DNA of 64,000 nt from an uncultured Christensenella sp. (GCA_949948895.1 CATLHE010000001.1:394776-458775), one strand, 5' to 3'; shown: positions 30,412-52,958, counted from the first letter of the stretch. Translations and numbers: made by a program. The notes: generated from the letters alone by a model not told the origin.

Positions 30412-31712
30412 TCCGTCCCCGATTGTATTTTGATATTTCCTATAGCGGTCGCCTCTATCGGCAACGCTATTACTTTTACTCCGCACGCTTGTTCCGTCAG
30501 CGCGTTGAGGTAATCGTTTTTTGCGCCTCCGCCCACTATGTACAGCGATCCGTACTTGACGCCCGTATTGTCGCTCAGTTCGTCGAGCGCGTCGCAGTAG
30601 CTTTTAGCGAGCGACAGATACGCGCTGTTAAAGTACCCGTATGCGTCTCGCGGTCTGCGCTCGAGCGCACTGTCAAACGCGTCTTTCATGGAAGCGGGCG
30701 CGCGGAAAATATCCGCGTTTACGTCCACCGTCTCTTTAAACCCGCTCGCTCTCGCGCCCTTTACTATCTCGCTCCACGGCGCGTCTTTACACAGCTCGTC
30801 GCGCAGGCGGTTTACCACCCACATGCCCATGATATTTTTTTGATAGCGCACGTATCCCACGCCGCCCTCGTTTGAGTAGTTGGCGCGCATGCTCTTTTCG
30901 TCGGTAAGCGCCGACGGGAGTTTAACGCCCAACAGCGACCATGTGCCGCTCGATATATACGGCGCGTTGCCGTCGAACGGTATGCCCTCGACCGCGCTCG
31001 CCGTATCGTGGCTTGCCGCAAGCACTACGCGGGTATTGCCGCCGACTCGCGCCGCTATCTCGGGTCTAAGCATGCCGACCGCCGTTTTCGCACGGTCTAT
31101 CTTACCGAACAGCTTTTTGGGAAGCCCGAGCGCGGAAATGAGCTCGCCGTCGTACTCGCCCGTCGTCGCGTCGACAAGCCCCGTAGTCGTCGCGTTGGTA
31201 TACTCGTGTCTTTTTATTCCCGTAAGTTTATATGTAAGATATTCGGGTATCATTAAAAAGTCGGTTGCTTTATCGAGCCTGCCTTTATTATTATCGTCAA
31301 ACAGCTGATACACCGTATTAAACGGCTGAAACTGTATACCCGTTCTTGCATACAGCGCCGAAAAAGGCAGTATTTCATGCACGCGCTTTACCGCTTGTTC
31401 CGTGCGTTCCGCGCGGTATGATATACAATCGCCCGACCGCTCGTCGCCGTTTAAAAGCACGTAATCCACGCCCCAAGTATCTATGGCGAGCGACGCTATA
31501 TGCGGATATTTTTCAAACGCCGCTTTTATCCCGATGACTACGCTTTCAAAAAGCTTATCGATATCCCAACACAAAAGCCCGCCGCGGCGCGTAACGCCGT
31601 TAGCAAAACGGTACACCTCGTCGGTCTCTATTTTCCCACCGTCGCCGCGGTACCCTATTATATGGCGACCGCTCGACGCGCCTATGTCTACGGCAAGATA
31701 ATATTGCTTCAT
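30408..31712 (-). CDS. rhaB: Rhamnulokinase (FGGY family)
   Basis: YLAVDIGASSGRHI, IDTWGVDYVLL, SSGTWSLLGV, YIVGGGAKNDYLN; start at MKQYYLAVD. Confidence 0.92.
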   Translation of the reverse strand: MKQYYLAVDIGASSGRHIIGYRGDGGKIETDEVYRFANGVTRRGGLLCWDIDKLFESVVIGIKAAFEKYPHIASLAIDTWGVDYVLLNGDERSGDCISYRAERTEQAVKRVHEILPFSALYARTGIQFQPFNTVYQLFDDNNKGRLDKATDFLMIPEYLTYKLTGIKRHEYTNATTTGLVDATTGEYDGELISALGLPKKLFGKIDRAKTAVGMLRPEIAARVGGNTRVVLAASHDTASAVEGIPFDGNAPYISSGTWSLLGVKLPSALTDEKSMRANYSNEGGVGYVRYQKNIMGMWVVNRLRDELCKDAPWSEIVKGARASGFKETVDVNADIFRAPASMKDAFDSALERRPRDAYGYFNSAYLSLAKSYCDALDELSDNTGVKYGSLYIVGGGAKNDYLNALTEQACGVKVIALPIEATAIGNIKIQSGTE

Positions 31713-31723
31713 GATACCGTTTA

Positions 31724-31752
31724 ATATTATCACATAAGCTTTGCGTTTTCAA
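31724..31752 (-). promoter_or_regulatory. Predicted rhaB promoter with overlapping dyads
   Basis: Minus strand TTGAAA-17 nt-TAATAT. Perfect 10-bp inverted repeat AAGCTTTGCG (31736-31745) / CGCAAAGCTT (31790-31799), and inner AATGCG-TAACG-CGCATT (31751-31767). Confidence 0.65.
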
Positions 31753-31872: not shown

Positions 31873-32679
31873 ATGTTTCGGAAAAAGCCCATGTTTGTAA
31901 ACGAACGCGCAAACCAAATAATCGAATACTTAAAGATCCACAAGAAAGCCACGATCGGCGAACTTGCCGCCGCGCTTTTTGCGAGCGAGTCGACCATACG
32001 CCGCGATCTTACCGAAATGCAGGAATCGGGATTGGTAGCCCGCTATCACGGCGGAGCTATACTGCTCGACGGCGTGGGCGAAGTCTCTTTGTTTGTGCGC
32101 GCCGAAAAAGACGCGGAGGAAAAGGACGAGTGCGCCAATATCGCCATAAATCATTTTTCGTCCATGTTCATGAACGCGAAAACGGTGTTCATAGACAACT
32201 CGTCCACCTGCCTCGTGCTCGCCAAAAAACTAGATTTTACAAATAAAACGGTAATCACGAACGGACTTCAGATAGCTTTACAGCTCTCGCAAAAGCCGGA
32301 CATACAGTTGATAATGCCGGGCGGTCATGTACACTTAAGCACCAGCGCGATCACGGGCTCGCTCGCTACGAGAACGCTGAGCGACTTCGGTATCGATCTC
32401 ATGCTCTCGTCGTGCGCGGGGCTTAACGCTACGGGCGCGTATGAGCTGTCGCTCGAAACGGCGCAACTCAAGCAAGTTGCGGCAAACCAAAGCAAGCACC
32501 GCGTATTGCTTGCGACTACAAACAAGCTTCTCACCGACGCGTCGTACCGCGTGAACGCGCTCGACGCATACGACTTTATATTTACCACCGCCGATGACGC
32601 GCTTGTCAAAACTCTCGCGACGAGCGGCGCAAATATCATCAACAATAAGCTAAATAGCGTACCCCCCCCCCATGGCTAA
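31873..32679 (+). CDS. DeoR-family transcriptional regulator (probable rhamnose operon regulator)
   Basis: NERANQIIEYLKIHKKATIGELAAALFASESTIRRDLTEMQESGLVARYHGGAIL; DeoR C-terminal FIDNSSTCLVLAKKL, VMPGG. Confidence 0.88.
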   Translation: MFRKKPMFVNERANQIIEYLKIHKKATIGELAAALFASESTIRRDLTEMQESGLVARYHGGAILLDGVGEVSLFVRAEKDAEEKDECANIAINHFSSMFMNAKTVFIDNSSTCLVLAKKLDFTNKTVITNGLQIALQLSQKPDIQLIMPGGHVHLSTSAITGSLATRTLSDFGIDLMLSSCAGLNATGAYELSLETAQLKQVAANQSKHRVLLATTNKLLTDASYRVNALDAYDFIFTTADDALVKTLATSGANIINNKLNSVPPPHG

Positions 32680-32857: not shown

Positions 32858-35311
32858 TTACCAGCCCATGATTCTGTTGTGCCAATAGTCTGCGCCTGCT
32901 CTGAATGTTAGCCCGCCTATTACAACGAACATATCGCCGCCGCGGTCGTTATCCAGGTATTCGCGGTCGAGCCCCTGCGTCGAAAACTCGCACTGCGGAT
33001 CGCGATCGGGCACATAGGTAAAGCGGAACTCGTACATCGAGTACGTGCCGTCTGCGCGTTTCAAAAGGTACCAGCCTTGCGTTGTCGCCGCCGTTCCCCA
33101 ATCGCCGCCGCCGTCTATATTTGTAATAAACAGCTCGAGAGTATCGCTCGTGCCCGACTGATTGCCGAGGTCCATTTTGCTCGTATCCCAATTGACGTCG
33201 GGGATGGCGTATATCATGTATTCGGCTGTCTTTTGCTCATACTCGACCGTGACCGTCTTTACGCCCACAGTCGTCATATCGGGCTCGGACACGGTATACT
33301 CGCTCTCGTCGAGCGTCTTTTGTGCGCCGTTAGCATAGTGCGCCGTGACTACAAGTCCGCTGTATTCAAAAGTTCCGTTGACCAAATACTCGCGCTTTGC
33401 GGCGGAATGATCTACGGTTATCCTGTCGAGCCTTGCCGCGACTACTGTTATATCATACTCCGCCGTCTTGCCGCCGTACTTGACCGTGACCGTGTGAGTA
33501 CCGACCGTATCCATATCGTATCCGTCGAACGTGCAAGCCGAAGCGTCAACGACTTCGCTCGAGCCGTCCTCGAAGTTTACAGTGACTATTAATCCCGCGG
33601 CTGTAAACGCGTCGCCCGCTTCAAACTCTTTCTTTGCGGCGGAATCGTTGAGAGATATTCCCACGATTACGCCAATAGGTTCCGCTACCGTAATTGTGTA
33701 CGTTGCGCTCTTGCCGCCGTAAGACACGGTAACGGGATAGCCGCCTGCAACAGTCAGATCGTATCCCGAGAACGAGCAATCGGATAGCGATACGTTACTA
33801 CGCGTTCCGTTGTTCATTACCGCCGTCACAATAAGCCCCGCCGCGCTGAACTCGTCGCCTACGAGATAGGACGTCTTTACGTTGGAATAGTCAAGCTCGA
33901 TCGATGCGAGCGATACCGCCGTCACGTTTACGGTGTACGACGCGGTCTTACCTGCGTACGTCACGATTATCGTCTTTTCGCCCGCAACGTTTCCATTATA
34001 GCCCTCGAACGTCGCTTGAGTATGCGCATCGACAAGCTGTTCGGAAACGCCGCTCATGCGATGAAGCGTGACGACGATGCCCGTCGCGTCGAACCCGTCG
34101 CCTACGAAATACTCGGTCTTGGCTTCCGTAGCGTCGACCGTGATATAGTCGATCTCATCCCAACCGATAACAACGTAGTGCCACACATTATCGGCGACCG
34201 TAAACACCGCGCCGCCAATCGTTATTTGAAGCGCGCCGCCGGACACGATAGCCGCTTCTCCGACGCACTTAACAAAGGTGCTCGTATACCCGTCGGGCGA
34301 GTACGTATACATAAACTCGTCCATGACGGTAGACCCGTCGGCTTTTTTGTTGACCGTCCAACCGACCGTTTCGGCGGCTTCGGTATTGCTTCCGCCGCCC
34401 TTGATCTCCGTAACGTACAGTATAAGAGCCTCGCCGCTCTCATTTGCGTCGGTAAAAGTCATCACTTTGTTTTGTTCGTACTGCGACGGCGACTTGGGAA
34501 GCACGCACACATTGACTTCGTCGATAACGGTTTGACCGCCGTACTGCGCCGTGACCGTCACGCCCGTATTGCCAACCGTATCAAACGCCGCAGTATCCGC
34601 TTCGAACTCGGTCACGGGATGCGTTTCGCCGTTGTTCATTACCACCGTGACGGTCAGTCCCGTTTTATCGAAACTGCCGCCCACACCGTAAACAGTGCGA
34701 ACGCCTTTCAGCCCGAACTCCAAAGATTTAGGCGCGAGCGCGACTACGTTTACCTTATACGTCGCTACCGCTCCGCGGTATGCTACGGAAATGATCTTTT
34801 CGCCAAGCGTTTCGCTGTCGAAGCCCGTTATCTCGCACTCGGAGAGCTTTATCGGTTTTGACTCGCCGAAACTGAGTATCGGCGTTACGACAAGTCCCGT
34901 CGCGCTGAACTCGTCGCCTTGAACAAACTCCGTCTTGGCTTTTGACGCGTCGAGTATCAATTCCGTTACGTTGACTTCGACTACCGTTACGGTATAATGC
35001 GCGGAAGCGCCCATAAACTTTATCGTGACTTTTTTCTCGCCCGCTTTACTCATATCGGGCGCGGAAACTTCGTACTCGGCATGCGTTGCGATATATCGTT
35101 TGCCGTCTACTATTGCTATAACAGTCAAGCCGTCAGTAGTAAAGCTCTCGCCCACGCCGAACGTGGTTCTCACGTTTGCGGTATCCAATTCGAGCTTGAC
35201 GGACGACTCATCTTTTTTGCCGCACGCCGCCAAAGCAAACACCGCCGCTAACAGCGAAGCTATGACCGCCAAGATCAATACTATTCTTTTATTTAGCTTT
35301 TTCTCGTTCAT
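32858..35311 (-). CDS. Surface lipoprotein with seven bacterial Ig-like (group 3-type) repeats and two copies of an unidentified domain
   Basis: Lipobox LAAC; repeats of LDxSxAKTEYxVGDxFxxxGLxVTxxxxxG...YDxxxxGxxxVTVxYGGKTAxYxVxV; unidentified domain at aa ~291-384 and ~722-817. Confidence 0.8.
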   Translation of the reverse strand: MNEKKLNKRIVLILAVIASLLAAVFALAACGKKDESSVKLELDTANVRTTFGVGESFTTDGLTVIAIVDGKRYIATHAEYEVSAPDMSKAGEKKVTIKFMGASAHYTVTVVEVNVTELILDASKAKTEFVQGDEFSATGLVVTPILSFGESKPIKLSECEITGFDSETLGEKIISVAYRGAVATYKVNVVALAPKSLEFGLKGVRTVYGVGGSFDKTGLTVTVVMNNGETHPVTEFEADTAAFDTVGNTGVTVTAQYGGQTVIDEVNVCVLPKSPSQYEQNKVMTFTDANESGEALILYVTEIKGGGSNTEAAETVGWTVNKKADGSTVMDEFMYTYSPDGYTSTFVKCVGEAAIVSGGALQITIGGAVFTVADNVWHYVVIGWDEIDYITVDATEAKTEYFVGDGFDATGIVVTLHRMSGVSEQLVDAHTQATFEGYNGNVAGEKTIIVTYAGKTASYTVNVTAVSLASIELDYSNVKTSYLVGDEFSAAGLIVTAVMNNGTRSNVSLSDCSFSGYDLTVAGGYPVTVSYGGKSATYTITVAEPIGVIVGISLNDSAAKKEFEAGDAFTAAGLIVTVNFEDGSSEVVDASACTFDGYDMDTVGTHTVTVKYGGKTAEYDITVVAARLDRITVDHSAAKREYLVNGTFEYSGLVVTAHYANGAQKTLDESEYTVSEPDMTTVGVKTVTVEYEQKTAEYMIYAIPDVNWDTSKMDLGNQSGTSDTLELFITNIDGGGDWGTAATTQGWYLLKRADGTYSMYEFRFTYVPDRDPQCEFSTQGLDREYLDNDRGGDMFVVIGGLTFRAGADYWHNRIMGW

Positions 35312-35339
35312 TTCGACCCCGCATCAAATAGTCGTTTCT

Positions 35340-36050
35340 CTAATACGTACCGTACCGAGATAAATAATCGAGTAGACTCGGATAAAAAATATCGTCGTCC
35401 AACTGCTTCTGCGCGTTCTCGGACTTATCGACTACAACAGTTCTCGCGCACACATACTCGTCGTACAAGTAACCGTTGAGCCCCGACAAATACGAATAGT
35501 CGAGAACGAGATCGTCGCTGTCGTGCATGGCAAGCCCATACACGCCCGCGCCCGTGACCCTATACGATCTTACGGCTTGCGTTCCGTCGGTAGGATCGGA
35601 AAGCGTCACGGAATACAGATCGGTCGAGAGCTGGTCGTATGTATAACTGCCCTTGACGTCCACAGCTATCTGAGCAAACCTTCCGCCCCACTCGCCGGGG
35701 TTGCCCAATACAACTGTATATTCGTATTCGTAAGTAAAATCGCGTTTGAGTTTGAGACGCTGATCCATATTGTACGAAATACGGTGACCTTCCATATTCG
35801 AATTTATCGGGTACTCTGTGCTGAGCATGTGCATGCGATCGGTCTTGCTTACGTTGCCCGCGTCATGAGTTATCCTGAGCGCGTCCGCTTCGGAAGCGCC
35901 CAAGGTTTCCTGATATGTGAACGTACCTATGAGCTCGCTCTTTTCTGTCGGCTTGGATTTACCTCCGCCGTCGGAACTGCCGCACGCCGCAAGCCCGCAA
36001 AGCGACAGCGCGGCGATAGCGGCAAACATAATCTTCGTTGTTTTTTTCAC
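35340..36050 (-). CDS. Lipoprotein, paralogous to N-terminal part of the 43507..46587 protein (cassette A)
   Basis: Lipobox LAAC; shared SELIG.F, QRL.LKRD.TYEY, .SVTLSDP..G segments. Confidence 0.7.
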   Translation of the reverse strand: MKKTTKIMFAAIAALSLCGLAACGSSDGGGKSKPTEKSELIGTFTYQETLGASEADALRITHDAGNVSKTDRMHMLSTEYPINSNMEGHRISYNMDQRLKLKRDFTYEYEYTVVLGNPGEWGGRFAQIAVDVKGSYTYDQLSTDLYSVTLSDPTDGTQAVRSYRVTGAGVYGLAMHDSDDLVLDYSYLSGLNGYLYDEYVCARTVVVDKSENAQKQLDDDIFYPSLLDYLSRYGTY

Positions 36051-36060
36051 GGTTATCTCC

Positions 36061-37152
36061 TTACTGTAATGCGAGTATCGCGCCCGTCCATGCGGAGTGC
36101 GGTGCCGAAAAGCCGTGACCGTCTATTGTTACCTGCAAGTCGTCGCCTACCTGCTTTTCATCTATACCGTTTGCAAACGTCGCATTCGATACAAAATGGC
36201 TTACGTAACCGTCTATGTAATAAGCAAAGTCGTACACGCGCGTCACGCCCTCGGCGTCGGTATAAACGTATTTGCCGCGCGCGTTTGACGCTCCGCTCTC
36301 ACCGTCCGAGCCGTCCGTCTCGGGCTTTGTAACCAAAAGCGTGAGAGACTCTTTTCCGTCCTCGTCGATATTGGTAAACTCGATGGCGCGCGACGGAGAG
36401 TCGAGTACGATCAATTCATCTTCCACCGCGGTATACGCAAACGCCGTAGACACATTGCCACAACGCACCGTCACGTTGCTCACGCCTTTTACGGAAGACT
36501 CGGAAAGCCAAACCGAATAATTGCTCGGCGACGCGACTACCGTAGTCGTCCACTCGGGATGTTCGTCCTGCATGGTAAGCTGTTTGGGCGTGCCGCTGAG
36601 CTCAGCCCACATGACAAAGCCCTCGAGCTCCACGCGCCCGTCTTCGCCAACGTTTATCGCGGACGGAAGACTCCGCACGTCGATATGCTTTACCCCGAAC
36701 ACGGTAACGGGATAATATCCCTCGTAAGTGGTGTTGCCGTCTTCGTAATACACTCGCGCAGCTTTGACGCCAGCCGTACTCGTATCGACGTCGAGCTTGC
36801 AATCCTCGCGTATTTTGCCGTCTATCACGAGCGCGAAGCCGATTGGATCGGGCGTTTCGCCCACCACATACTCGACGCGCGCATCTTCCGTCACCAAAGC
36901 CGACGCTTTCTTGACCACTATTTCCGCAACGGCATTGCCGCGCGACGCCCAAGAAAGAAGCACCGAAAACGTAACGACCGTCGCTATCGTGGTACAGCCG
37001 TAAATAAGGTATTTCCACTTATTGCGCCCGAAATGTATCTTTTCGCCGAGCTTGATAAAAAACGATTTTAACTTCCCGCCGAGCTTGACGAAAAACGCGC
37101 ATAGCTTATCTTTAAACGCGGAAAGCTTTTGCTTCATGCTTGCCTTGCTCAT
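36061..37152 (-). CDS. Single-TM protein with Ig-like ectodomain and unidentified C-terminal domain (cassette A)
   Basis: Basic N-terminus, TM YLIYGCTTIATVVTFSVLLSW, VEYVVGETPDPIGF Ig-like segment; paralogous to 46595..48202. Confidence 0.7.
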   Translation of the reverse strand: MSKASMKQKLSAFKDKLCAFFVKLGGKLKSFFIKLGEKIHFGRNKWKYLIYGCTTIATVVTFSVLLSWASRGNAVAEIVVKKASALVTEDARVEYVVGETPDPIGFALVIDGKIREDCKLDVDTSTAGVKAARVYYEDGNTTYEGYYPVTVFGVKHIDVRSLPSAINVGEDGRVELEGFVMWAELSGTPKQLTMQDEHPEWTTTVVASPSNYSVWLSESSVKGVSNVTVRCGNVSTAFAYTAVEDELIVLDSPSRAIEFTNIDEDGKESLTLLVTKPETDGSDGESGASNARGKYVYTDAEGVTRVYDFAYYIDGYVSHFVSNATFANGIDEKQVGDDLQVTIDGHGFSAPHSAWTGAILALQ

Positions 37153-37595
37153 GCGTTATCCTCCCTCTTACTCGTCGAGAAAAACGCGCCGACTACAACG
37201 CAAACAATGGCGACGACGTACACAGCTATGCCCGCGATACTGCGTGGAACGCCTATCGCGTTTGCTTCCACGTCGCCCATATTGTGAACGGTAAAATAAA
37301 TACCTATCGGAGACAGACAGGGCGTAAAAAACTTGACCGCCGCTATCACGAGTGCAAATATAGCTATTATGTACAAAGCGTCGACAAACATCGGACGGTT
37401 GCCCATAAACAGCGAGTTGATCAAAATACAGCATATCGACCATATAGCTATTATCATAAGCGCCACAACCCATTTATCGGAAACAAAGTGAAACGCGTCG
37501 AAAGTAACAGCATACATGATGAATGCGACTATAGTCAGCAACAGCGCGGCGGCAAGTATGTAAAATCCCGCTCTCGGAGCTTTAATCTTTATCAT
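37149..37595 (-). CDS. Four-TM membrane protein (cassette A)
   Basis: Four hydrophobic segments; similar to 48199..49173 (IVAF..Y, IF.MGN+P-type loop, PC...IG). Overlaps both neighbours. Confidence 0.68.
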   Translation of the reverse strand: MIKIKAPRAGFYILAAALLLTIVAFIMYAVTFDAFHFVSDKWVVALMIIAIWSICCILINSLFMGNRPMFVDALYIIAIFALVIAAVKFFTPCLSPIGIYFTVHNMGDVEANAIGVPRSIAGIAVYVVAIVCVVVGAFFSTSKREDNA

Positions 37596-40500
37596 CGCCG
37601 TCGCCCTCCGTTTTTATTTCATTGTCCGCATACGCCGTCGAACCGTCTTCCGCGTCGCACGATATACTGATATCCGCGTTATCGGCAGTCTCCGCCTGTT
37701 CCGTACAGTGACCGCCTTGCGCCGACGCTTTGGCTTTTCTATCGCTCAGCACGCGCAAAACTACCGCGAGCACGGCAAGAACGCCGCACAAAACACCCGT
37801 ACCTATCGCTCCGCCGACAAGAGCTTTTTGCCACCAAAACACCTGTTCTTTTACAACAGTATTGGCGTCGTAGCCGTTGAGCGCGCTGCTGTTAGCCAAA
37901 GAATACATATAGTAGTGCATGTTTTCGGACAAGGCTTCGCACAGCTTGGGATCGCTTTTTACTTTGCTCTTATTGTTATAGTCGGGCCAGAAATTTGTGA
38001 GAAGGCTCTCGGCATTGGAAGTCGCCATAAACGTAACGTTGTTGATTACCGCGTCTTGCGGGTTAAAGAACCGTCCGCCTACGACCATATCCGTCGATAT
38101 AAGACCTTTGTATCCCCACTCGCCGCGGAGTATATTTTTCATCAGTCCCGTGTGCGCGTTTACGCCGCACGCGCCGACGCGCGAGAACGACGACATGAGC
38201 CCTATCGCGTTTACGGTGTGACCGTCGGCGTTTACGTATTTGACGTCCTCGCTCAAGCCCTGAAACGCTCTCAGCTCAAGCTCTCTCGCCGATTGCTCTT
38301 CCATAAACTGACACAGTCCTTCGCGGTACGATTCCTGCGTATTAAACGCGAAGTGTTTTGCTGAAAGTATCGCGCCTTTTGCGAGCCCGCCGCGAACGAA
38401 TGAAGTACCCAATATATTCGTGAGCATGGGGTCTTCGCTGTAATACTCGTGATTGCGCGAGTTGAACGGCGTGCGGTGAAGATTCATACCGGGCGCCCAG
38501 ATAATGGGGTTGCGGCTCCAAAGCATATCCTCGCCGTACATTCTGCCCTGTTCTTCCAATAACTCTTTATTGAACGTAGCCGCAGTCATCGGCTCGCAAC
38601 ACATATCGCAAGACATGTACCCGTAGTTAGGATCGCTTTCGGGCACAGCCATGACGCCGCTCGACGGTGCTTTACTGCCGATAGAGCGCGTCACGTTACC
38701 GTTGGGACCGTCTATCTGCCACACTTCGGGCGCGTTCACCGACTTAAAGAGCTTACAGCTCGCGCCGCCGTACGGCGCAAACGCCCACGCTTCGTCAAAC
38801 GTGATCTGACTGACTAAATACTCCCAACGCTCGTCGTCGTATGACGCGAACTTCATTTCCGCGATGGACAGATTTTCGAGCGGATTGCCCTCGTCGTCCT
38901 CTTCGGTGGAGTGATCGACCCCGAACTTTACGTCGGACGAACCGGTGGTAAACTGATAAACGCGGCTGTCCAAATACAGATTCATCGAGCTAGGCACGTC
39001 GAGTCTGACGTACGATTTGGGAAAAGTTCCAGCCCAATCGCTGCGAGAAAGGTATGTTACCGTATTCGGTTTATAGTAGTTGTAATCCGCATCGGCAAGC
39101 TGATTGCTTACCGTCTTTCCGCTTTCGGTCACCGAAAGAAGCTCGACGTTCACGCCGTTTGTATCAAACGCTATACCGCTGTCGTTTGCGGGATGCCACG
39201 CCGCGGCTTTATCGACGGACGGCGACTCACCGACTTCCGAGTACAGTTTGGACTCGTCGACGCCCTTTTTAAGCAACACGCTGTTGAGCGCGTCGTGCGC
39301 GCCGTTGCCTACCGCAAAGTAATACGTATCGTTTTCGAGTATATACCCGCCCGTAGCGCTTCCGTTTGCGACCGTCTTATCATAGCTCGCCAAGTATTTA
39401 AGCGCAAACTCGACGGTAACCGTGCGTTCCTCGTTCGCGTCGAGCTCTGTCTTCTCAAAACCGACGAGCTGTATCGCGCTCTTTTCGACGCCGTGTTCTT
39501 TGTCGTACTCCGTGTACGGCGATTGCGCATAAACTTGAACTACCGTTTTTGCGGCGCGCTCGCCCGTATTTTTGACCGCTATATCTATCTTTGCCGTCTT
39601 GCTCTCGGTATCCACTTCGAGCGAGCCGTCTACAATCTCTTGCGTAAACGTAGAATACGACAAGCCGTAACCGAACGTATACGACACTTCGTCCTCGTAC
39701 TTCCAAAGCGAAGTCGTCGCGCCGTGCCCCTGCCCTATGGGTGAAGCCGCTCTGCCTCTGCCTTCCACGACGTCGGCATAACGCGTTTCGTAGTAATAGT
39801 AGCCCGTATACAAGCCTTCCGCAAGCACGACGTAGTGGCTGTTGTCCGCATTGTTGTAACGCGACGTATCCGACCACTCGAATTTGCCGTTGCCGCTCGG
39901 CGACGTGATACCGAAGTTTTGCGCCGCGGGCGACGCGGAAGCGTCGACCGCGTAGGTGTCGGGAAGGCTTCCCGACGGCGAAGCTTTGCCGCTTATCACG
40001 CGCGCCACGCCGTTCATTCCGTAACTGCCGGGCAATCCTATCCAAAGCACCGAATCGACGTTAGGATCGTTTTTGAGATCGTCTATCTCCATAGCTACCG
40101 CGCTGTTCACGAGCACGATAACTTTATCCGATATCTGAGCCGCGACGCTTATAAGATCGCGCTCGTCTTGCGAAAGCCCGACAGCGCTTTTCGATCCGTC
40201 GCTTTTATCCGAAACGCCGTATTCACCGGGCAGGTATTCGCGACCCTCGCCGCTAGACCTTCCCACGACGACAAAACACGCGTCGTCGTACATTTGATAC
40301 TGCCCGCATTCGGAAAGCGTGATACGCGGCTCGTTTATCGCAAAAGGCGCGCCCGAGCTTCCGTTTGCCTCGCTGCCCGCGACAAGCGAAGGAAAATTCT
40401 TGCCGCTGTACGCGTTTACGAGCGCGGGGTTTATCGTGATGTTTTGGTTTTTGAACGCGGCTTCTATCGTGATCGGAAGGGATATCTTGCCGTCCGCGGT

Positions 40501-40947
40501 CTTGACAGTTTGCTTGCGGATTGGGCTTCCGACTATCCCGCCGTAAAACGCAAGCGAAGTATCGCGAAGATTGCCGCTCTTGTCGTACGTATACGCGCGC
40601 GAGCCCAAAACGGTGACTTTTATTTCCTCGTCGGAATCGGCGGAACGAAGCGGCAGTGCGCCGTTCTCGTTTTTAAGAAGCACGCACCCCTCTTCGCCTA
40701 TTCGCTCCGCAACGTTCTTTCTCGCCGTAAGCATTTCCACGGTGTTCTCGTAATCGGACTTAAACCCGTAAGCTTCCGCACTGCCCGCAAGAGCGGTGTT
40801 CACGCCGAGCACGTTGTTTATGAGCGCGGTATAGTCGCTTATTTTGCCTATGGAGCTTGCGCCTATCAAGAGCGCGCACAAAAACGCGCACAGCACGGCA
40901 AAACCGCGAACTAAATTATACTTGTTTACTTTACTTCTCTTTTTCAT
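37582..40947 (-). CDS. GH3-family glycosidase, permuted domain order, N- and C-terminal TM anchors (cassette A)
   Basis: GCVLLKNENGALPL (GH3 C domain) and FGYGLSYSTF/Fn3-like part come first; the barrel-type part MNLHRTPFNSRNHEYYSEDPMLTN, SAKHFAFN, KGLISTDMV follows. Hydrophobic segments near both termini. Confidence 0.88.
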   Translation of the reverse strand: MKKRSKVNKYNLVRGFAVLCAFLCALLIGASSIGKISDYTALINNVLGVNTALAGSAEAYGFKSDYENTVEMLTARKNVAERIGEEGCVLLKNENGALPLRSADSDEEIKVTVLGSRAYTYDKSGNLRDTSLAFYGGIVGSPIRKQTVKTADGKISLPITIEAAFKNQNITINPALVNAYSGKNFPSLVAGSEANGSSGAPFAINEPRITLSECGQYQMYDDACFVVVGRSSGEGREYLPGEYGVSDKSDGSKSAVGLSQDERDLISVAAQISDKVIVLVNSAVAMEIDDLKNDPNVDSVLWIGLPGSYGMNGVARVISGKASPSGSLPDTYAVDASASPAAQNFGITSPSGNGKFEWSDTSRYNNADNSHYVVLAEGLYTGYYYYETRYADVVEGRGRAASPIGQGHGATTSLWKYEDEVSYTFGYGLSYSTFTQEIVDGSLEVDTESKTAKIDIAVKNTGERAAKTVVQVYAQSPYTEYDKEHGVEKSAIQLVGFEKTELDANEERTVTVEFALKYLASYDKTVANGSATGGYILENDTYYFAVGNGAHDALNSVLLKKGVDESKLYSEVGESPSVDKAAAWHPANDSGIAFDTNGVNVELLSVTESGKTVSNQLADADYNYYKPNTVTYLSRSDWAGTFPKSYVRLDVPSSMNLYLDSRVYQFTTGSSDVKFGVDHSTEEDDEGNPLENLSIAEMKFASYDDERWEYLVSQITFDEAWAFAPYGGASCKLFKSVNAPEVWQIDGPNGNVTRSIGSKAPSSGVMAVPESDPNYGYMSCDMCCEPMTAATFNKELLEEQGRMYGEDMLWSRNPIIWAPGMNLHRTPFNSRNHEYYSEDPMLTNILGTSFVRGGLAKGAILSAKHFAFNTQESYREGLCQFMEEQSARELELRAFQGLSEDVKYVNADGHTVNAIGLMSSFSRVGACGVNAHTGLMKNILRGEWGYKGLISTDMVVGGRFFNPQDAVINNVTFMATSNAESLLTNFWPDYNNKSKVKSDPKLCEALSENMHYYMYSLANSSALNGYDANTVVKEQVFWWQKALVGGAIGTGVLCGVLAVLAVVLRVLSDRKAKASAQGGHCTEQAETADNADISISCDAEDGSTAYADNEIKTEGDGDDKD

Positions 40948-40959
40948 GTGTAGTAACCG

Positions 40960-43455
40960 TTACTCCGCTTGGTTTATATCGTAATGACTGCCGAGCGAAT
41001 CGGATGCGTTTTCGGGACTGCGCATATTTATGACGGTTATGACAACGTCTCCGTCTATGGTGTATTCGGGTGAGCCGCCGTACGCGCCGACCGAGAAGTT
41101 TGCAATACTCAAATCGAAACCGCTCTTTAATGCAATCGACGATACGCTATTGAATGCGGCAAACTCGCTCGCCGTCGTATTATCGGGATCGTAATAAGAA
41201 AGCTCGGCGCTGCCTTTTACCAAATTGAGCGAGCCGCCCTGTATGCCCCAACCCTTGCTCTTTACGATGAGTTTTCCCGCTATTCCGCCCTCTTCGCTTC
41301 CGACGGTGACGGTAACCGCTTGCAACGCGCCGCAATTATCGCCAGGTGCAGCAGTAATATCGAGCGTGCCGTACACGTTTACGGCTACCGATTGCAAAGC
41401 TCCGTTACTACTATTGGGTGCTACGGTTATATTCAGATTACCATATACGTCAACAGTAGAAGCTCCGCCCCAGCTGATTATCCCCGCCGCAAAATTGTTT
41501 ATCTCCAAGGTTCCGTGCTCTCCAACCTCAACTTTGTCGCCCCCTCTATGAAGCGAAATACCGCAGTTACCGGAACCGTTTTGAGTAATGGTTAGTTTTC
41601 CGCTGAGAATCTTATAATCGAGGTCGCGATTACCGTCACTGTTTATACCCTCTGAGGTAGTAGTTATATTAACGTTGGGCTGAACGGTGTTTTCCGCATT
41701 GCCTACTATTAGTTTGTTATTTTCTCCGTTGCTTCCGACGGCTATCCTCGGAAGATCCGCGTCGCTTTCTATTATCAATACCGTACCTATGGAAACAGAG
41801 TCGGTAACGGTGAGCTTGCCCTCGCCCGCGATCTTGAGATTATGGTCCACACCCCATTCGTCCGCAAATGTCAAAGTCGAAATCGTAGCGTCGCCGTCTA
41901 CGCTCAATATCACGTGCTCGTCGCGCGTTGTTATAGATAGCGCGCCGCTGTAATTGTCGGTCACGCGGATAATAAACTCTTGCTTTACGGGATCGTACGT
42001 AATGCCATTGTCGAGATTTTCCTCTTTATAGCAATCCGCGACCTCATACTTCGTTCCGTTTACTATCACATACCTATTGCCGAAATAACCTACTTCGCTA
42101 CCGCGCGTACCGCAGTCGTTGTCGCACACCCTGTAAAATTTATTATCGGTCGTATCGAACTCCGTTTTATCTTTGCCGTACGCGTGACCGAGCGCGGTGA
42201 TTATGCCGTCGGTATATTTGTCTCCGCATTCACATTCGTGATCGGTATGCCCGTCCGCCGTACACGTGGGTGCAACGACCGTTTCGGTATAGTCGTGATC
42301 GGCTTGGGTGCTTTCTATCTTGCCGTCGCAAACCGAGCAGTTGTGCCAATGCTTGCCGTCGTCCTTTTGCCACGCCGTTTCCGCGGTATGGGCGGATTCC
42401 GTGCTATCTATCTTGTTTCCGCACACCGAGCAGTTGTGCCAATGCTTACCGCCGTCCTTTTGCCATACCGTTTCCGCCGTATGCTCACCCGTAGCGGGTA
42501 TAACGACCGAACCGGATATGACCTGCGTGCAAGCCGCATCCGAATAATATACGCCGCTCTTTTCCCAATACTCGATATTGCCGTCCGCGCCGCAAGTCGC
42601 TTCTTTGCGCTCGTGATGAACGACTACGCCGAGTTGCGGTATCTCTGTATTTTCGTTGCGCGTCTCGCCGCACTCGCATTCTTCGTGCTTGACGCCGGGC
42701 GAAGTCGTTGTGGCTTCGGTATCAATCGTCCATTCAAATTCGTGATCGGCTTCCGTGCTTTCTATCTTATTGCCGCACACCGAGCAGTTGTGCCAATGCT
42801 TGCCGTCGCCCTTTTGCCACGCCGACGCCGCCGTATGCTCGCCCGTAGGCTGTAAAACAGTATCTTCGAGATTTATCTCGTGCTTACCCTCTGCGTCCGA
42901 ATAGTACTTTGTGCCGTCGGTATAATAGGCTATATTGCCCGCTGTATTGCAGGTAGGCGCTTGCGCGGGCACCAAAGTCAGCCCCGGCGCGGGCGTGCCG
43001 CTGCCCGTCGGCGGCACGGTTTCGGGAACGGTCGCGAAACCGCATTCGCATTCTTTATGCCGCGAGCCCGACTGCGTTTCGGTCGGCACTCTGTCGTATA
43101 TCCAATCGCCGTCTAGATCGTGCGCTTCTTTTTGCGTAGCGGGCAGCGTGCAGACCGTGCAAACTTTCCAGTGCCCACTCTCGTCGTCGTATTCGAAATC
43201 GCCCGCGGTATGTCCGTCGGGATCGATCCTCACGCTTCCGAGTGTTATCTCGTTTTTACCGTCCTTATCCGAGTAATATTTTACTCCGTCGGTATAATAA
43301 CCGCTATGCCCGGGCTGTGTGCAGGTTTGCGGCACGGGTTCTACGTAACGAATGGTTTTGCCGTCTTTATCGCCGCATGCGGCGAGCCCCGCGCAAGCGG
43401 AAAGCCCCATTACCGCAGCAAGCGCCGCGGTGACAATACGTTTGTTTCTCATCAT
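40960..43455 (-). CDS. Large surface lipoprotein with Cys-rich repeats and Cthe_2159-like beta-helix C-terminus
   Basis: Lipobox LAAC; four HW(H/K)xCxxC repeats and three HxECECG motifs; C-terminal short-strand repeats (LTFADEWGVDHNLKIAGEGKLTVTDSVSIG...). Confidence 0.72.
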   Translation of the reverse strand: MMRNKRIVTAALAAVMGLSACAGLAACGDKDGKTIRYVEPVPQTCTQPGHSGYYTDGVKYYSDKDGKNEITLGSVRIDPDGHTAGDFEYDDESGHWKVCTVCTLPATQKEAHDLDGDWIYDRVPTETQSGSRHKECECGFATVPETVPPTGSGTPAPGLTLVPAQAPTCNTAGNIAYYTDGTKYYSDAEGKHEINLEDTVLQPTGEHTAASAWQKGDGKHWHNCSVCGNKIESTEADHEFEWTIDTEATTTSPGVKHEECECGETRNENTEIPQLGVVVHHERKEATCGADGNIEYWEKSGVYYSDAACTQVISGSVVIPATGEHTAETVWQKDGGKHWHNCSVCGNKIDSTESAHTAETAWQKDDGKHWHNCSVCDGKIESTQADHDYTETVVAPTCTADGHTDHECECGDKYTDGIITALGHAYGKDKTEFDTTDNKFYRVCDNDCGTRGSEVGYFGNRYVIVNGTKYEVADCYKEENLDNGITYDPVKQEFIIRVTDNYSGALSITTRDEHVILSVDGDATISTLTFADEWGVDHNLKIAGEGKLTVTDSVSIGTVLIIESDADLPRIAVGSNGENNKLIVGNAENTVQPNVNITTTSEGINSDGNRDLDYKILSGKLTITQNGSGNCGISLHRGGDKVEVGEHGTLEINNFAAGIISWGGASTVDVYGNLNITVAPNSSNGALQSVAVNVYGTLDITAAPGDNCGALQAVTVTVGSEEGGIAGKLIVKSKGWGIQGGSLNLVKGSAELSYYDPDNTTASEFAAFNSVSSIALKSGFDLSIANFSVGAYGGSPEYTIDGDVVITVINMRSPENASDSLGSHYDINQAE
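42312..42840. repeat. Intragenic near-identical repeats encoding DGKHWHNCSVCGNKI
   Basis: Three copies of (c)accgagcagttgtgccaatgctt(g/a)ccg(t/c)cg(t/c)ccttttgcca(c/t)(g/a)ccg near 42325, 42425 and 42780. Confidence 0.85.
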
Positions 43456-43506
43456 TTCCTCCCGAATATCATAAGTTACGGACTCGACCTTAAAAGATCG
43501 AGATAT

Positions 43507-46500
43507 CTACACTTTTCCGCTTTGTCTCAGCACCCCGTTATTTTCTATCGTGAGATGGAGTTCCCACGTAGCGGGTTCCCAAGGCTCCAAGCCGCACTTG
43601 TACCCGTCCACGACCAAAAGTCCGTTGTTCACGAGTTTTGCGTACTCGTCGCCGCCGCCCTTGGTCCAGCACTGAATGGGTACGTCGCAGTTTTTAAACA
43701 CCAATTTCGCAGAATCGGTCACCGTTATCACCTCGTCGCCACTCTCGGCGTTTATGCCGCGTCCCATGGTGTCTGAGTTCTTCCAATCCTGACCGTTCTC
43801 GATAACGATGTCGCAGTTTTGCGCAGTGACTATCGCGCCGCGCTCCAACGCCAATACGCCGCTTCTGCACATTGCGCGCATGTAAATACTTCCGCCGTTG
43901 AGAAGCATATTTTGCACTTTTGCGGCGTAGTTCACGTCCCACCACGAATTGAAGAACGTATTTACAAGCTCGATACTTCCCACGTCGTAGCGTCCGCTTA
44001 CGGTGCGTATCGTAACGGGATTGAGCGCTTCTATGCAATACCCGCTGTCGGCGGTTATTTTAAGCGCGCCCGCGTCGACCGTAACGTCGCCCCGTCTTAT
44101 GCCCGCGCTGTCCACCGAGCCGCTATCGACACGGATATCGGTAACGCCGCCGTTAAATACCATTTGACGGTTCACCGACTTATCGTCGGCGTCTTTCGCG
44201 TCGTCGCCCGTAATGCCGTACGCGCTCGCTTCTATAACAACCGCGCCGTCGTTTACGGTAAAGCTTTGATCTTTGTCGCCTTTGAGATAGACGCCGTTCA
44301 AAAAGCCTTTTGCGGTAAGCGTGCCGTCAACAACGATATCGCCCTGAGTAACGACCGCCGTCTTTTTGCTCGCGGTGTTCCCGACATATACGATATTGAG
44401 TTTGCCGCCGTTTACTATTTCGAGCGACGCGCATACAAGGCTGTCGTCGTCGGTCGCGTTATAAGTAAAGAGATTGACCGTCGCGCCGTCCACTGTGAGC
44501 TTGCCGCCTGCGTAAATATTGCCGTAAACGTTTACCGTGCCGTCACCCGTTATCAAAATATCCGAATTGGTGCGCACCGTGCCGCGGTTTCTCATAAAGT
44601 CGCGTATCACGTTGTTTATGCTCGACTCGCCCGTCGCCGTCACGGTAAGCTTGCCTATGCCGCCGTCGGTGACGAATATGCCGTCTATGGACGCGCCGTC
44701 CATCGTAACGTCGTACGAATTGTCGGCGTTTCGCACGACCGTATAGCCGTCGCCCTCCAATGACGGAACGCTCGCGCTGAACGTGTTGCCGTTTACATAC
44801 AGCTTATCGCCGAACGCGTTGGCATCGTTATCCTCGATCTTTTCAAGCGCGAGAGCGTATCTGAACTCGCCCGTCGAAAACTCGACCGCGCCGTCGTCTC
44901 TGTTTACAGGCGGATAAATGCCGTATACTACGCTGTCGCGATCGTGATACCATTCCGCCGACTTGACCAAAGAGAACAGAGCGGAAGCCGCGGGTCTTTG
45001 ACCTTCTTCGCCGTAAATATCGGTGCGGGCTATCGCGCGCGTCACCGAATACTCCGCCGTTCCCGCAAGCTGTATCGTACCGTCGAACACAGTAACGCAT
45101 ACGGGCGAATCGTAATCGAAAATATCGGTTACCGCGACCGATACGATATAGCGGTCGCCGTCTGCCGCCTTGACAGGCGCTACGTCGTACTTTTCCTTAT
45201 CCCCGACCGTGATGTAGGCTTTTAAAAGTCCGAAGTCTTCGGCTGCATCAAACTCGAACACGAGCGAGGGCACGCCGCTTTGAATAGCGAGCGAAGGCAC
45301 CGTCTGCCAAGTGAATCCATCTACAGGTTTATCGAAGTTGTGAAGCGTGATACCGTCGCGAAGCCACCAATCGGTGTGGTAAACGTTTTCGCCCGCGCCG
45401 CCTCGCGACGCAAAAATCAAGCTGTTTGCTGCGGCGCTCGGCGTGATCGACGCTCCCGCATTTTTCGCAGTGACGAGCATGCTTGCCGCCAAATGATTCA
45501 CAGCTCTCGCGCCGTAATCGGTTTTGTCGCCCGATTTTATTACAAGCTCTTCCAAGTAATTCGCCGCGTCAAACTCGATATTGCTATCGCTTATCGATAT
45601 GGCGAGTTTCCGTCCAAATGCCGAATAGCTTATAGGATAAACGAACAGGTTTCCGCCGTTTACCTTTTCTTTATCGGATACGGTTGCGCCGTCTACCGTG
45701 ATCGAATCGATATCCGAAGCCGTCTTGACGCAAACGGCGATACCGTCGCCCACTCTGAGATTTACGCCGTAGCCGCTTACCGTTTTTACAGGCATATCCG
45801 CGTGTTTCGGTTTTCCTTTTTCGGGATCGGGCGGCGTAGGTATATCGGGATCGCTCGGCGTTACCGACGACGAATAACTGTAATAGGGCGCGACGTCGTT
45901 CATGAAATCGGTGTATAACATATCCGAATGAAGAACGCGCTCGCCGTCCGTGCGCTCCACGGAGACCGTGCGGCCTTTGACGTACCTATCGAACTCCGCT
46001 TCGCTTTCGGCTACGCTCGCAAGATCGAGCTTGTAGCTTGCCGAGCTCGAAAGCTTCCAAGAATAAACATTTCCCTCGCCCGTGATAAACGCGCCGTATA
46101 TCGATTCTTCGCCGCGAACTGGATCGGAAAGCGTGACGGAAAATTTCTCTTCGTCCGTCTCTATGTACTCGAACGTTCCGTACGCCGTAGCCTCGAGCTT
46201 GGCAAGATCGACGTTAGCCGACTGCGACACTATCCTTACCGTGATCGATACGGAATACTCGTAAGTGTAGTCGCGCTTGAGCCTGAGCCGCTGATACGGC
46301 GTGTAACGCGCTCCAATGTCGGTAACGGTATTCAGAGGATAAACGCTTGAAGTGTAAATATACGTATTGCCGTCGTCATCAAGCTCGCCCACAAGCTCGA
46401 TATCGTTTGTGAGCGTCACGTTCTCCGACTCATTGGATTCAAACAGCCCGATCAGCTCGCTGCGTTTGCCGTTGTCTTTTTTGTCTCCGTCGTCTTTCTT

Positions 46501-46587
46501 ATCGCATGCGACAAAAGCAAACCCGAAAAGAGCAAGCGCAACGGCGACTATGACAGTGTACAGTATTTTTGACCCGTGTCTTTTCAT
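43507..46587 (-). CDS. Large surface lipoprotein, cassette B: paralog of 35340..36050 plus long beta-helix-like C-terminus
   Basis: Lipobox FVAC; KRSELIGLFESNE, QRLRLKRDYTYEY, FSVTLSDPVRGEE; later G-x-L-T-V/I-x repeats resembling Cthe_2159-type domains. Confidence 0.72.
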   Translation of the reverse strand: MKRHGSKILYTVIVAVALALFGFAFVACDKKDDGDKKDNGKRSELIGLFESNESENVTLTNDIELVGELDDDGNTYIYTSSVYPLNTVTDIGARYTPYQRLRLKRDYTYEYSVSITVRIVSQSANVDLAKLEATAYGTFEYIETDEEKFSVTLSDPVRGEESIYGAFITGEGNVYSWKLSSSASYKLDLASVAESEAEFDRYVKGRTVSVERTDGERVLHSDMLYTDFMNDVAPYYSYSSSVTPSDPDIPTPPDPEKGKPKHADMPVKTVSGYGVNLRVGDGIAVCVKTASDIDSITVDGATVSDKEKVNGGNLFVYPISYSAFGRKLAISISDSNIEFDAANYLEELVIKSGDKTDYGARAVNHLAASMLVTAKNAGASITPSAAANSLIFASRGGAGENVYHTDWWLRDGITLHNFDKPVDGFTWQTVPSLAIQSGVPSLVFEFDAAEDFGLLKAYITVGDKEKYDVAPVKAADGDRYIVSVAVTDIFDYDSPVCVTVFDGTIQLAGTAEYSVTRAIARTDIYGEEGQRPAASALFSLVKSAEWYHDRDSVVYGIYPPVNRDDGAVEFSTGEFRYALALEKIEDNDANAFGDKLYVNGNTFSASVPSLEGDGYTVVRNADNSYDVTMDGASIDGIFVTDGGIGKLTVTATGESSINNVIRDFMRNRGTVRTNSDILITGDGTVNVYGNIYAGGKLTVDGATVNLFTYNATDDDSLVCASLEIVNGGKLNIVYVGNTASKKTAVVTQGDIVVDGTLTAKGFLNGVYLKGDKDQSFTVNDGAVVIEASAYGITGDDAKDADDKSVNRQMVFNGGVTDIRVDSGSVDSAGIRRGDVTVDAGALKITADSGYCIEALNPVTIRTVSGRYDVGSIELVNTFFNSWWDVNYAAKVQNMLLNGGSIYMRAMCRSGVLALERGAIVTAQNCDIVIENGQDWKNSDTMGRGINAESGDEVITVTDSAKLVFKNCDVPIQCWTKGGGDEYAKLVNNGLLVVDGYKCGLEPWEPATWELHLTIENNGVLRQSGKV

Positions 46588-46594
46588 GTCTACC

Positions 46595-48202
46595 TCACAG
46601 TCCCATTATCGCCCCGAGCCATTCCTCCTCGGGCGCGGTAAAGGTATCGGTTATCACGCCTTCGCCGCGTTCGAAGAACGAAACGTGGGCAAACAGCGTG
46701 CCTCTCGTGTACGAGTTGTACTTGTTGGGATCGTCGTCGGGCAACGCCTCGTTGACAACGATGTCGCTCACCGACGCGTCGGCGGTTATGTCGCTGCTGT
46801 GCGTGGACGACAGCGGAACGTAAGTCCAAGTCCACGCCTGCATATAGAACGACATTTTATGAGATACGCCGCTGCGATCGGTGTAAATATAAACGCCGTA
46901 GCTGTATCCGTTGCCCGTGCCCAAAAGCGGGTTCATATCGTAGCTGCAAATGTAAAGCGTAAGAGACGGCAGCGCAGTCTCGGGTTCCGTAGGTTCGGTC
47001 GAATCGTCCGCCGTCGGCTCGGTAGGTTCATCGGTATCTGGCGTGTCGGTAGGATCGGTCGGCTCCGTCGGTTCTTCCAATTCGGGAGCCCTGTACGTGA
47101 AATGAAGTATCCTATCGTCCGAACCTATTACCACTTTAAACCCGTTATCGTCTACGATATTGCCGTTTACCACCGCGCTCTGCCATTCCGCACGGTTTGC
47201 TACAAACGTATTTCCGTCCACAGTAGCTGAGTATTTTTCGCCGTCAAAAGCTTCCGCAACGTACGACGAACCGAACGCTTCCTCTTTGTCTTTAAGTTCG
47301 TAAGAGAACGCGTACTCGGTCTCGGTCTCGCCGTCGTTGTAGACATAATATCCTGAGGACTTACCCACGCCGTGCGTCTGATAACTCGGCGTTTTTTGAG
47401 TGACGATAAGCGTAAGACCTTCGGCGCTTTCTTCGGTCGGCGTGTCTGTTACGTTCTCGCCGTCCTGCCCGTCGTCAAGCGCTTCGGGCGCGGACTTTTG
47501 GAACTTGACTATATCTTTCGTCGATTCGACGATATAGCTCTTGCCCGCCGCATTATAAAAGGAGAAGGACGCCGAAACGTTGCCGCAATAGTACGATATG
47601 CCGTAAAACCCGCGCGTCGAGAGATCCTCGGTAAGAGTGTACGTATAAGTATTTTCGTCGAGCTCTATTCGATACCCGCCGTCTACCGCTTTCACGTCGC
47701 CGAAAACGTCGGTCTCAGGTTTTTCCGCGAGAATGGCGTGCATTTTGAAATGCTCGTCGGCAACGGCACTGTCGCCGTCTACGGCTATGCTATTCGGATA
47801 GCTTTCTATATCGAGACTGCGCACAAAATATACGCGGCAATCAAACTCGGCAACATAGCTCAAATACTCGCTTGCTTGATAAATTATCCTTACCGTTTTA
47901 TCTCCCGCCGACGAAAAATCGGCGTTTATCTGACATTCCTCGATGGGTATGCGCTTCGATCCTATATCGAGTTCCGCGCCGTCGGGATTGAACGACTGAC
48001 GAACAAGATACTCCGTCGCGAGTTCGTTTTCGCATACGAGAGTAGCGTTTTTCATTTGCACCACTTGCTCGACCTTGCCCTTCATCATCCACGTCAGCAA
48101 GCATGCCGCAAGTATCACGGTGGCTATTCCCGACAAACCGTATACAAAATACTGTAAATGCTTTTTCACAAACGCGAGAGCTTTTCCGATCATTTCGTTC
48201 AT
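46595..48202 (-). CDS. Single-TM protein with Ig-like ectodomain, two copies of unidentified domain and TPE-rich linker (cassette B)
   Basis: TM YFVYGLSGIATVILAACLLTW; linker EEPTEPTDPTDTPDTDEPTEPTADDSTEPTEPE between domain copies at aa ~258-345 and ~410-535. Confidence 0.72.
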   Translation of the reverse strand: MNEMIGKALAFVKKHLQYFVYGLSGIATVILAACLLTWMMKGKVEQVVQMKNATLVCENELATEYLVRQSFNPDGAELDIGSKRIPIEECQINADFSSAGDKTVRIIYQASEYLSYVAEFDCRVYFVRSLDIESYPNSIAVDGDSAVADEHFKMHAILAEKPETDVFGDVKAVDGGYRIELDENTYTYTLTEDLSTRGFYGISYYCGNVSASFSFYNAAGKSYIVESTKDIVKFQKSAPEALDDGQDGENVTDTPTEESAEGLTLIVTQKTPSYQTHGVGKSSGYYVYNDGETETEYAFSYELKDKEEAFGSSYVAEAFDGEKYSATVDGNTFVANRAEWQSAVVNGNIVDDNGFKVVIGSDDRILHFTYRAPELEEPTEPTDPTDTPDTDEPTEPTADDSTEPTEPETALPSLTLYICSYDMNPLLGTGNGYSYGVYIYTDRSGVSHKMSFYMQAWTWTYVPLSSTHSSDITADASVSDIVVNEALPDDDPNKYNSYTRGTLFAHVSFFERGEGVITDTFTAPEEEWLGAIMGL

Positions 48203-49173
48203 TTCGCGTTTCCCCCATCGGCGGTAGATTTTTCGTTCGCCTTCTTTGCCGCGGCGCCCTTGCTTGCGGTCTTACCAGCCGTGCTCTTGCTCGCGGTTTT
48301 GCTTGCTGTTTTGTCCGCCGCGCTTTTGCTCGTTGTCGTTTTGGCGGCTGTTGTCTTACCGGAAGAAGTCTTACGCGCGGCAGGCTTTTTGACCGTCGGC
48401 GTAGCGACTTCCGTCTCTATTTGCTCGGTTTGTTCGTACGTGTCGGAAGCGACGGGCTCCGCCCTTTCGACGGGCTCTGCGCGATCCGCTATATCGGTTG
48501 AAGCGGCTTCATCTTTTGCCGCTTGTTCTTCTTGTACTTGCGCGTTATTTTCTTCCGCGTTTTCGGCGGCAATCGCATCTTTGGTTTCGATATTTACCGC
48601 CTCGCCGCCGTCCGCTTTAACTTCGGACATAGCTTGCTCGGCGAATTCAGACGCGGGTTGCTCGGAAGCAGTTGTTTCCGCAGCTTCTGCCGCCGCCGTT
48701 TTCGACTTTTTCTTTTTGCCGAACGACCATTCCGCGGGCATGAATGCCGCGGCTATCACGAACACAGCCGACAGCACGTAAAACACGGCGGTCATGATGG
48801 AAGTGTTTGTTATCGCTCTGTTCTTTTCGACGTTGCCCATTATAAGATCGCCCGCGCCTAGCGTATAGCCTATGGCGTTTACGCAAGGCAGCATGAGTTT
48901 TAACAGCGCGTAAATGAGAAAGAACGCGATAGCGGGATAAATGATAAGCGTCCAAAACGGCTTATCGCCTTTGAACAGCATGTTGAGCGCAAGAAACACC
49001 ATGCACCACATAGCGAATATCGTGAAAGTTATCGTCATGCGGTCGTGCTCGAACGGCTCGATCTTGTACGTTTTAAAGTACAGACAGAACGCGACTATCG
49101 AAAGGATAAACGCAACGCATATCGCAATAAAGCCGAGCCCCGGCTTTTTCAGCTTTAGACCGAGCTTAGCCAT
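48199..49173 (-). CDS. Four-TM membrane protein with long Lys/Ala/Ser/Thr-rich histone H1-like C-terminal tail (cassette B)
   Basis: Start at MAKLGLKLKKPG; four TM helices, acidic middle, then AARKTSSGKTTAAKTTTSKSAADKTASKTASKSTAGKTASKGAAAKKANEKS. Confidence 0.7.
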   Translation of the reverse strand: MAKLGLKLKKPGLGFIAICVAFILSIVAFCLYFKTYKIEPFEHDRMTITFTIFAMWCMVFLALNMLFKGDKPFWTLIIYPAIAFFLIYALLKLMLPCVNAIGYTLGAGDLIMGNVEKNRAITNTSIMTAVFYVLSAVFVIAAAFMPAEWSFGKKKKSKTAAAEAAETTASEQPASEFAEQAMSEVKADGGEAVNIETKDAIAAENAEENNAQVQEEQAAKDEAASTDIADRAEPVERAEPVASDTYEQTEQIETEVATPTVKKPAARKTSSGKTTAAKTTTSKSAADKTASKTASKSTAGKTASKGAAAKKANEKSTADGGNAK

Positions 49174-52928: not shown

Positions 52929-52958
52929 CGAACAAAGTCTGAAATGCGGAGTCGGCAT

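Follow-up and report, generated by a model that had tools for sequence, protein, structure and literature searches.

The locus studied here, a 64,000-nucleotide stretch of DNA from an uncultured Christensenella sp. (hereafter the window), raises the question of what protein part recurs five times in three of its gene products, and what it does there. An earlier note had read these recurrences as copies of one unrecognised domain, and translation placed all five segments at the coordinates that it gave, on the minus strand, in the open reading frames 32858..35311, 36061..37152 and 46595..48202. The copies, with the limits adopted here and, in brackets, those of the earlier note, are:

Copy A: 36064..36408 by profile (36064-36381), minus strand, C-terminus of 36061..37152; profile match, also modelled within the full-length protein.
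Copy B: 47165..47476 by profile (47168-47431), minus strand, middle of 46595..48202; profile match.
Copy C: 46598..46999 by profile (46598-46975), minus strand, C-terminus of 46595..48202; profile match.
Copy D: 34160..34486 by profile (34160-34441), minus strand, between Big_3 repeats of 32858..35311; profile match.
Copy E: 32861..33202 for the structure model (32861-33148), minus strand, C-terminus of 32858..35311; profile match of 115 bits.

The segment starts first proposed were roughly right in position, but the true start of the domain lies about 10-15 residues earlier, and these added N-terminal residues hold a short strand preceding the L-x-L-x-V-T strand. The C-terminal Trp box is likewise present, though amended to W(H)xxx(I/V)(L/M)(G/N)(W/L), with the final W/L absent in copy B. 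The beta7-beta8 hairpin is longer in copy C.

In pairwise comparison, copy A was clearly related to copies B, C, D and E, and copy D to copy E (score reached in 0/1000 shuffles), while the comparisons B-C, B-E, C-D and C-E were not significant. Because these four pairs are too diverged for pairwise comparison, relatedness was tested by profiles. HMMs trained without the positional class of the copy sought recovered each window copy, with E-values (Z=10,000) of 4e-6 for C, 5e-14 for B, 1e-15 for D, 1e-20 for E and 7e-21 for A, and the best reversed-sequence decoy of the family profile had an E-value of 0.4. Thus, no segment failed to align at profile level, a single domain family unites all five as had been claimed, and chance resemblance is ruled out by the leave-one-class-out profiles and the reversed decoys. 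A profile of the five copies recovered those five alone, with no sixth copy in the window or in the remainder of the 1.86-Mb assembly, and it found related copies in congeners; with relatives included, the family comprises 69 unique copies. These data indicate that the domain family is real; it is absent from the curated libraries searched.

All five copies are encoded by two paralogous minus-strand operons, each of which is probably one transcript, judging from the tight same-strand spacing. Each of the two includes genes for a membrane-anchored GH3 with swapped domains, a 4-TM protein, lipoproteins and a single-pass protein whose Ig stalk ends in the domain:

Operon I GH3: 37582..40947, minus strand, membrane-anchored, domain order GH3_C - Fn3 - GH3_N (Pfam).
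Operon I 4-TM protein: 37149..37595, minus strand, small (hydropathy of homologues; profile found beside most GH3 of the same type).
Operon I stalk protein: 36061..37152, minus strand, single-pass membrane protein with two Ig-like domains and copy A (AlphaFold2).
Operon I first lipoprotein: 35340..36050, minus strand, 236 aa, no family (sequence, Pfam).
Operon I second lipoprotein: 32858..35311, minus strand, seven Big_3 stretches and copies D and E (PF07523, E=2.5e-69).
Operon II GH3: 49166..52597, minus strand, membrane-anchored, swapped order as in operon I (Pfam, GH3 tree).
Operon II 4-TM protein: 48199..49257 as the listed ORF, minus strand, real start probably internal (sequence, homologues).
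Operon II stalk protein: 46595..48202, minus strand, single-pass membrane protein carrying copies B and C and paralogous to 36061..37152 (homologue comparison).
Operon II first lipoprotein: 43507..46587, minus strand, 1026 aa, N-terminus related to 35340..36050 (blastp of relatives).
Operon II second lipoprotein: 40960..43455, minus strand, repeated CxxC segments, C-terminal part repeat-rich (sequence; homologues at several clade loci).

The GH3s have both GH3_N and GH3_C above the Pfam cut-off, and their homologues have one hydrophobic segment at either end. Since the DGPNG, KHFAFN and STD motifs are conserved, the GH3s of both operons are presumably active. The lipoprotein 32858..35311 has a lipobox-like LAAC close to its N-terminus, and a weak Big_3 signal was found in 3 of 11 members of the stalk-protein family. 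The surface topology of the operon proteins is a prediction. In 40960..43455, the CxxC segments include 'HWHNCSVCG' repeats, and Pfam gives no confident family. Divergent from operon II lies 52944..54194, which encodes a predicted secreted glycosyl hydrolase (Glyco_hydro_cc PF11790 plus He_PIG) with a homologue close to the GH3 at several clade loci, mainly of operon-II type.

Structure predictions cover copy E alone and copy A inside 36061..37152. The AlphaFold2 model of copy E (pLDDT 91.7, pTM 0.84, 39-row alignment) has strands at residues 9-14, 21-31, 39-48, 54-64, 70-73, 80-83, 91-95 and 98-102; after these roughly eight strands comes a helix (104-112) that bears the conserved Trp. In the full-length model, copy A shows the same strand order and C-terminal Trp helix behind a TM helix and two Ig-like domains, so that the two predictions agree. 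Foldseek with the copy E model returned nothing at E<=0.001 either from the PDB (best E 0.2, listed TM-scores <=0.44) or from viral models (best E 0.15), the listed TM-scores of both sets together being at most 0.47. The fold may therefore be new with respect to the PDB and the viral models, which the fold searches covered.

Sequence and family searches gave a similar picture. No match was found among PDB sequences, and in the Pfam/NCBIfam scan of 39 members any one family appeared in at most two, none significantly. Big_3 (PF07523) matched 0/39 copies at E<=1, though the flanking repeats do match. The best Foldseek matches in the PDB were not Ig domains and had low TM-scores, in a search that bears on Ig-like and Fn3 folds alike. 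A family or structure match to carbohydrate-binding modules, sought by PDB sequence, Pfam and Foldseek, was not found. For cohesin/dockerin, there was one weak match to NF041540 dockerin_GC in 1/39 members (E=0.0026) and none in Pfam. The domain also differs from DUF1735, being mostly C-terminal, hosted by Bacillota and free of Pfam matches. As the earlier note had supposed, the domain cannot be assigned to a known family: it has no match in Pfam, NCBIfam or PDB sequences and none that convinces among PDB folds, and a known Ig, CBM or cohesin family was rejected as its identity. Our literature search found nothing specific on the domain or on this GH3 system. The domain is a mostly beta, predicted extracellular module of about 100-110 residues, undescribed before.

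To place the domain in its genomic context, contigs of public genomes were scanned with a GH3 alignment, yielding 79 related GH3 loci. Among loci with a GH3 of >=52% identity (the clade), the domain profile matched 28 of 29, always downstream and on the same strand, and it matched 0 of the 50 loci with a GH3 of <=41% identity. The sole miss is L096, cut off by its contig end within the stalk protein. Of the positive loci, 13 belong to genomes that gave training sequences and 15 were unseen; all untruncated clade loci outside the training genomes were domain-positive (15/15). In the GH3 tree, a single branch with support 100 sets all domain carriers apart (one change). Within the genus, the domain occurs in 6/20 genomes, exactly those with the clade GH3. 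Sampled searches found it in 8/396 genomes of the order, 2/391 of the class and 1/399 of the phylum, each count including the window's own genome. Public records assign some carriers to Bacilli or Erysipelotrichaceae, and weak, unproven matches occur in G034 and G179. Phage or plasmid spread was rejected, as tblastn with copy E gave no match.

The earlier note had called the domain a reusable ectodomain, and this generality did not hold up: the domain is dedicated to accessory proteins of the operons of one membrane-anchored GH3 clade, with one known exception. That exception, G199, is a 98%-complete genome with no clade GH3, in which a large Big_3-containing protein (L072:7019-11281) has three or four diverged copies; either the enzyme was lost or these copies may represent a second use of the domain.

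The stalk protein follows the same boundary (29/29 clade loci, 0/50 others), as do homologues of the 236-aa lipoprotein (27/29 and 0/50). The unnamed 4-TM protein lies directly downstream of the swapped-domain GH3 at nearly all loci, inside the clade and also outside it (43/50), among them loci of Lachnospiraceae, of Bifidobacterium aerophilum and of a Chloroflexota MAG. With the stalk protein and the 236-aa lipoprotein limited to the clade and the 4-TM protein found outside it as well, a widespread GH3/4-TM pair carries surface accessories in this clade alone. The 4-TM protein is a candidate uncharacterised partner of swapped-domain GH3 enzymes.

The domain was expected at C-termini or between Ig-like blocks, and this is where it lies: copies A, C and E are C-terminal, D lies between Big_3 repeats and B is mid-protein. 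In 36/42 proteins, the last copy ends within 10 residues of the C-terminus. In the copy tree, which was read for position grouping only and in which automatic anchored/lipoprotein labels err (L079 and L080 are Big_3 lipoproteins), copies cluster broadly by operon position, with many forks weakly supported. The loops beta2-beta3 and beta4-beta5 are 0.24-0.57 identical within a positional class and 0.06-0.21 between classes, a contrast to which rapid loop divergence among old paralogues may add; 'YQ....G' (class B) and 'NPLLGTGNGYS' (class C) are examples. Little difference of this kind is seen in strands beta2 and beta3 or in the beta3-beta4 turn, and beta4 and the beta5-beta7 region also set class C apart from the remaining classes. 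Judged by strand order, and provided that successive strands pair as antiparallel hairpins, the two loops would share one pole, and class-specific loops at one pole are as expected for putative position-specific binding sites. The most conserved residues of the domain are core-type hydrophobics and Gly, not an invariant polar or aromatic site.

Rhamnose genes lie beside operon I, with a regulator between them and the operon (all Pfam):

GH78: 25811..28354, minus strand.
Class II aldolase: 28358..29179, minus strand.
RhaA: 29176..30486, minus strand.
FGGY kinase: 30408..31733, minus strand.
DeoR-type regulator: 31873..32679, plus strand.

One strong GH78 match was found in each of the 11 domain-bearing genomes, and RhaA in 10/11. 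GH78 and/or RhaA lie within about 25 kb of the clade GH3 in six genomes (G000, G001, G018, G114, G245 and G405), rhamnose genes and the clade GH3 are on separate contigs in G006, G074 and G275, and contig ends preclude judging the distance in G003 and G015. GH78 alpha-L-rhamnosidase genes occur near 9/29 clade loci and 21/50 other GH3 loci, distant taxa included. Since GH78 lies near non-clade GH3 loci as well, the rhamnose link belongs to the GH3 system and not to the domain. This proximity to swapped-domain GH3 hints at rhamnosyl-glucoside substrates. A rutinosidase belonging to GH3 has been documented in Acremonium (PMC10591481). The GH78 25811..28354 has no evident signal peptide in its sequence, and we hypothesize that the GH3 frees a rhamnosyl-glucose disaccharide, whose import and cleavage by a cytoplasmic GH78 would fit.

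What, then, does the domain do? Binding of carbohydrates or partners, which the earlier note had raised, is plausible as a putative function and consistent with the class-specific loops. The domain is most likely a binding tip; a glycan could well be what it binds, and protein partners are a somewhat less likely answer. Our tentative first choice, which stops short of being probable, is a C-terminal tip that serves the anchored GH3 by capturing or positioning a sugar substrate or the surface that displays it. In its favour are the presence of the domain at 28/29 clade and 0/50 other loci, the matching distributions of the stalk protein and of the domain within the genus, the single branch in the GH3 tree, the C-terminal placement, the class-specific loops, the nearby rhamnose genes and the conserved GH3 active-site motifs. 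Binding, the glycan as ligand and the GH3 substrate are all things we infer, whereas the domain family with its predicted structure, its near-exclusive tie to one GH3 clade, its placement, its loops and the linkage to rhamnose genes are shown. The operon would then hold the GH3 on the outer side of the membrane together with tethered arms, in which the domain would tip Ig-type stalks and sometimes form inner beads too, one such stalk belonging to the single-pass membrane protein and the rest to lipoproteins. The products would be imported, plausibly via the nearby MFS_2 transporter, and rhamnosyl-linked parts would be cut by GH78 and catabolised by RhaA, the kinase and the aldolase. Several observations weigh against this reading: no CBM family or structure matches, conservation falls on the core instead of an invariant polar or aromatic site, the class-specific loops suit protein partners just as well, diverged copies occur in G199 although it has no clade GH3, the rhamnose genes are on other contigs in three genomes, and GH78 also accompanies non-clade GH3.

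It is a serious possibility, if a lesser one, that the domain serves assembly, each positional class docking on a different operon protein (GH3, 4-TM or lipoproteins) to form a surface complex with no sugar contact. The strict co-occurrence with one GH3 clade fits such docking, as do the broad clustering of copies by operon position, loops that follow position and not genome, and the sharing of the domain by a membrane protein and lipoproteins. However, the clade-specific GH3 insertions are 6-12 residues long, none longer than 12 as an obvious dock, so that a large GH3 insertion was rejected as docking partner, and the 4-TM protein occurs outside the clade without the domain.

We consider it unlikely that the domain merely ends and stabilises the Ig stalks without binding anything. 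A plain cap should not retain class-specific loops, internal copies (B and D) exist too and many Ig-stalk proteins lack the domain, although its C-terminal place in most proteins, its conservation centred on core positions and the precedent of the DUF1735 spacer of Bacteroidota loci (PMC11216935) would suit such a role. It is very unlikely that the domain belongs, far diverged and missed by the searches, to a known family of Ig-like, carbohydrate-binding or cohesin type: a beta-rich, extracellular domain adjoining glycosidases and Big_3 repeats would accord with it, but no Pfam/NCBIfam family reached significance or more than 2/39 members, no PDB sequence matched and the best PDB fold stayed at E 0.2 with listed TM-scores <=0.44.

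For the preferred reading of a glycan-binding tip, a bolder version can be framed, which we regard as decidedly improbable: a new fold serving as an interchangeable, position-coded tip in a Gram-positive surface complex that gathers rhamnosyl-glucosides (e.g. plant flavonoid rutinosides or saponins) for the anchored GH3. If true, such a complex would match Sus-type glycan capture in function while consisting of unrelated parts. The family is well delimited and cleanly associated in the genomes, its confidently predicted structure has no match among solved structures, and the family offers a way into a surface system of several proteins in gut Clostridia, a little-studied group. Because the GH3 and 4-TM core is widespread, the ligand of the accessory tips would help explain this commoner core. 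Overall, the domain is probably a binding component dedicated to a still unstudied system by which gut bacteria harvest sugars.

Compared with known systems, Big_3 (PF07523) alternates with the domain in 32858..35311 and gives a weak signal in stalk proteins, but the domain itself has no Big_3 match and has a C-terminal Trp helix. As a functional class, the CBMs of glycosidase systems are similar in being non-catalytic beta modules encoded with a glycosidase, with variable loops on a conserved core; different from them, the present domain matches no known family in sequence or fold and is not fused to an enzyme, and CBM-like binding is here putative. The DUF1735 spacer of Bacteroidota PULs is likewise a role-unassigned domain of membrane-tethered proteins, near-confined to glycan-utilisation loci (PMC11216935), yet it is N-terminal, Ig-like and Bacteroidota-only (PMC11216935), whereas the present domain sits at C-termini, showed no Ig-like fold in the fold search and occurs in Bacillota. 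Finally, the GH3 and 4-TM genes of both operons belong to the pairs of an anchored GH3_C - Fn3 - GH3_N enzyme with a 4-TM protein, from which these operons differ in their domain-bearing Ig-stalk accessories, a feature of one clade only.
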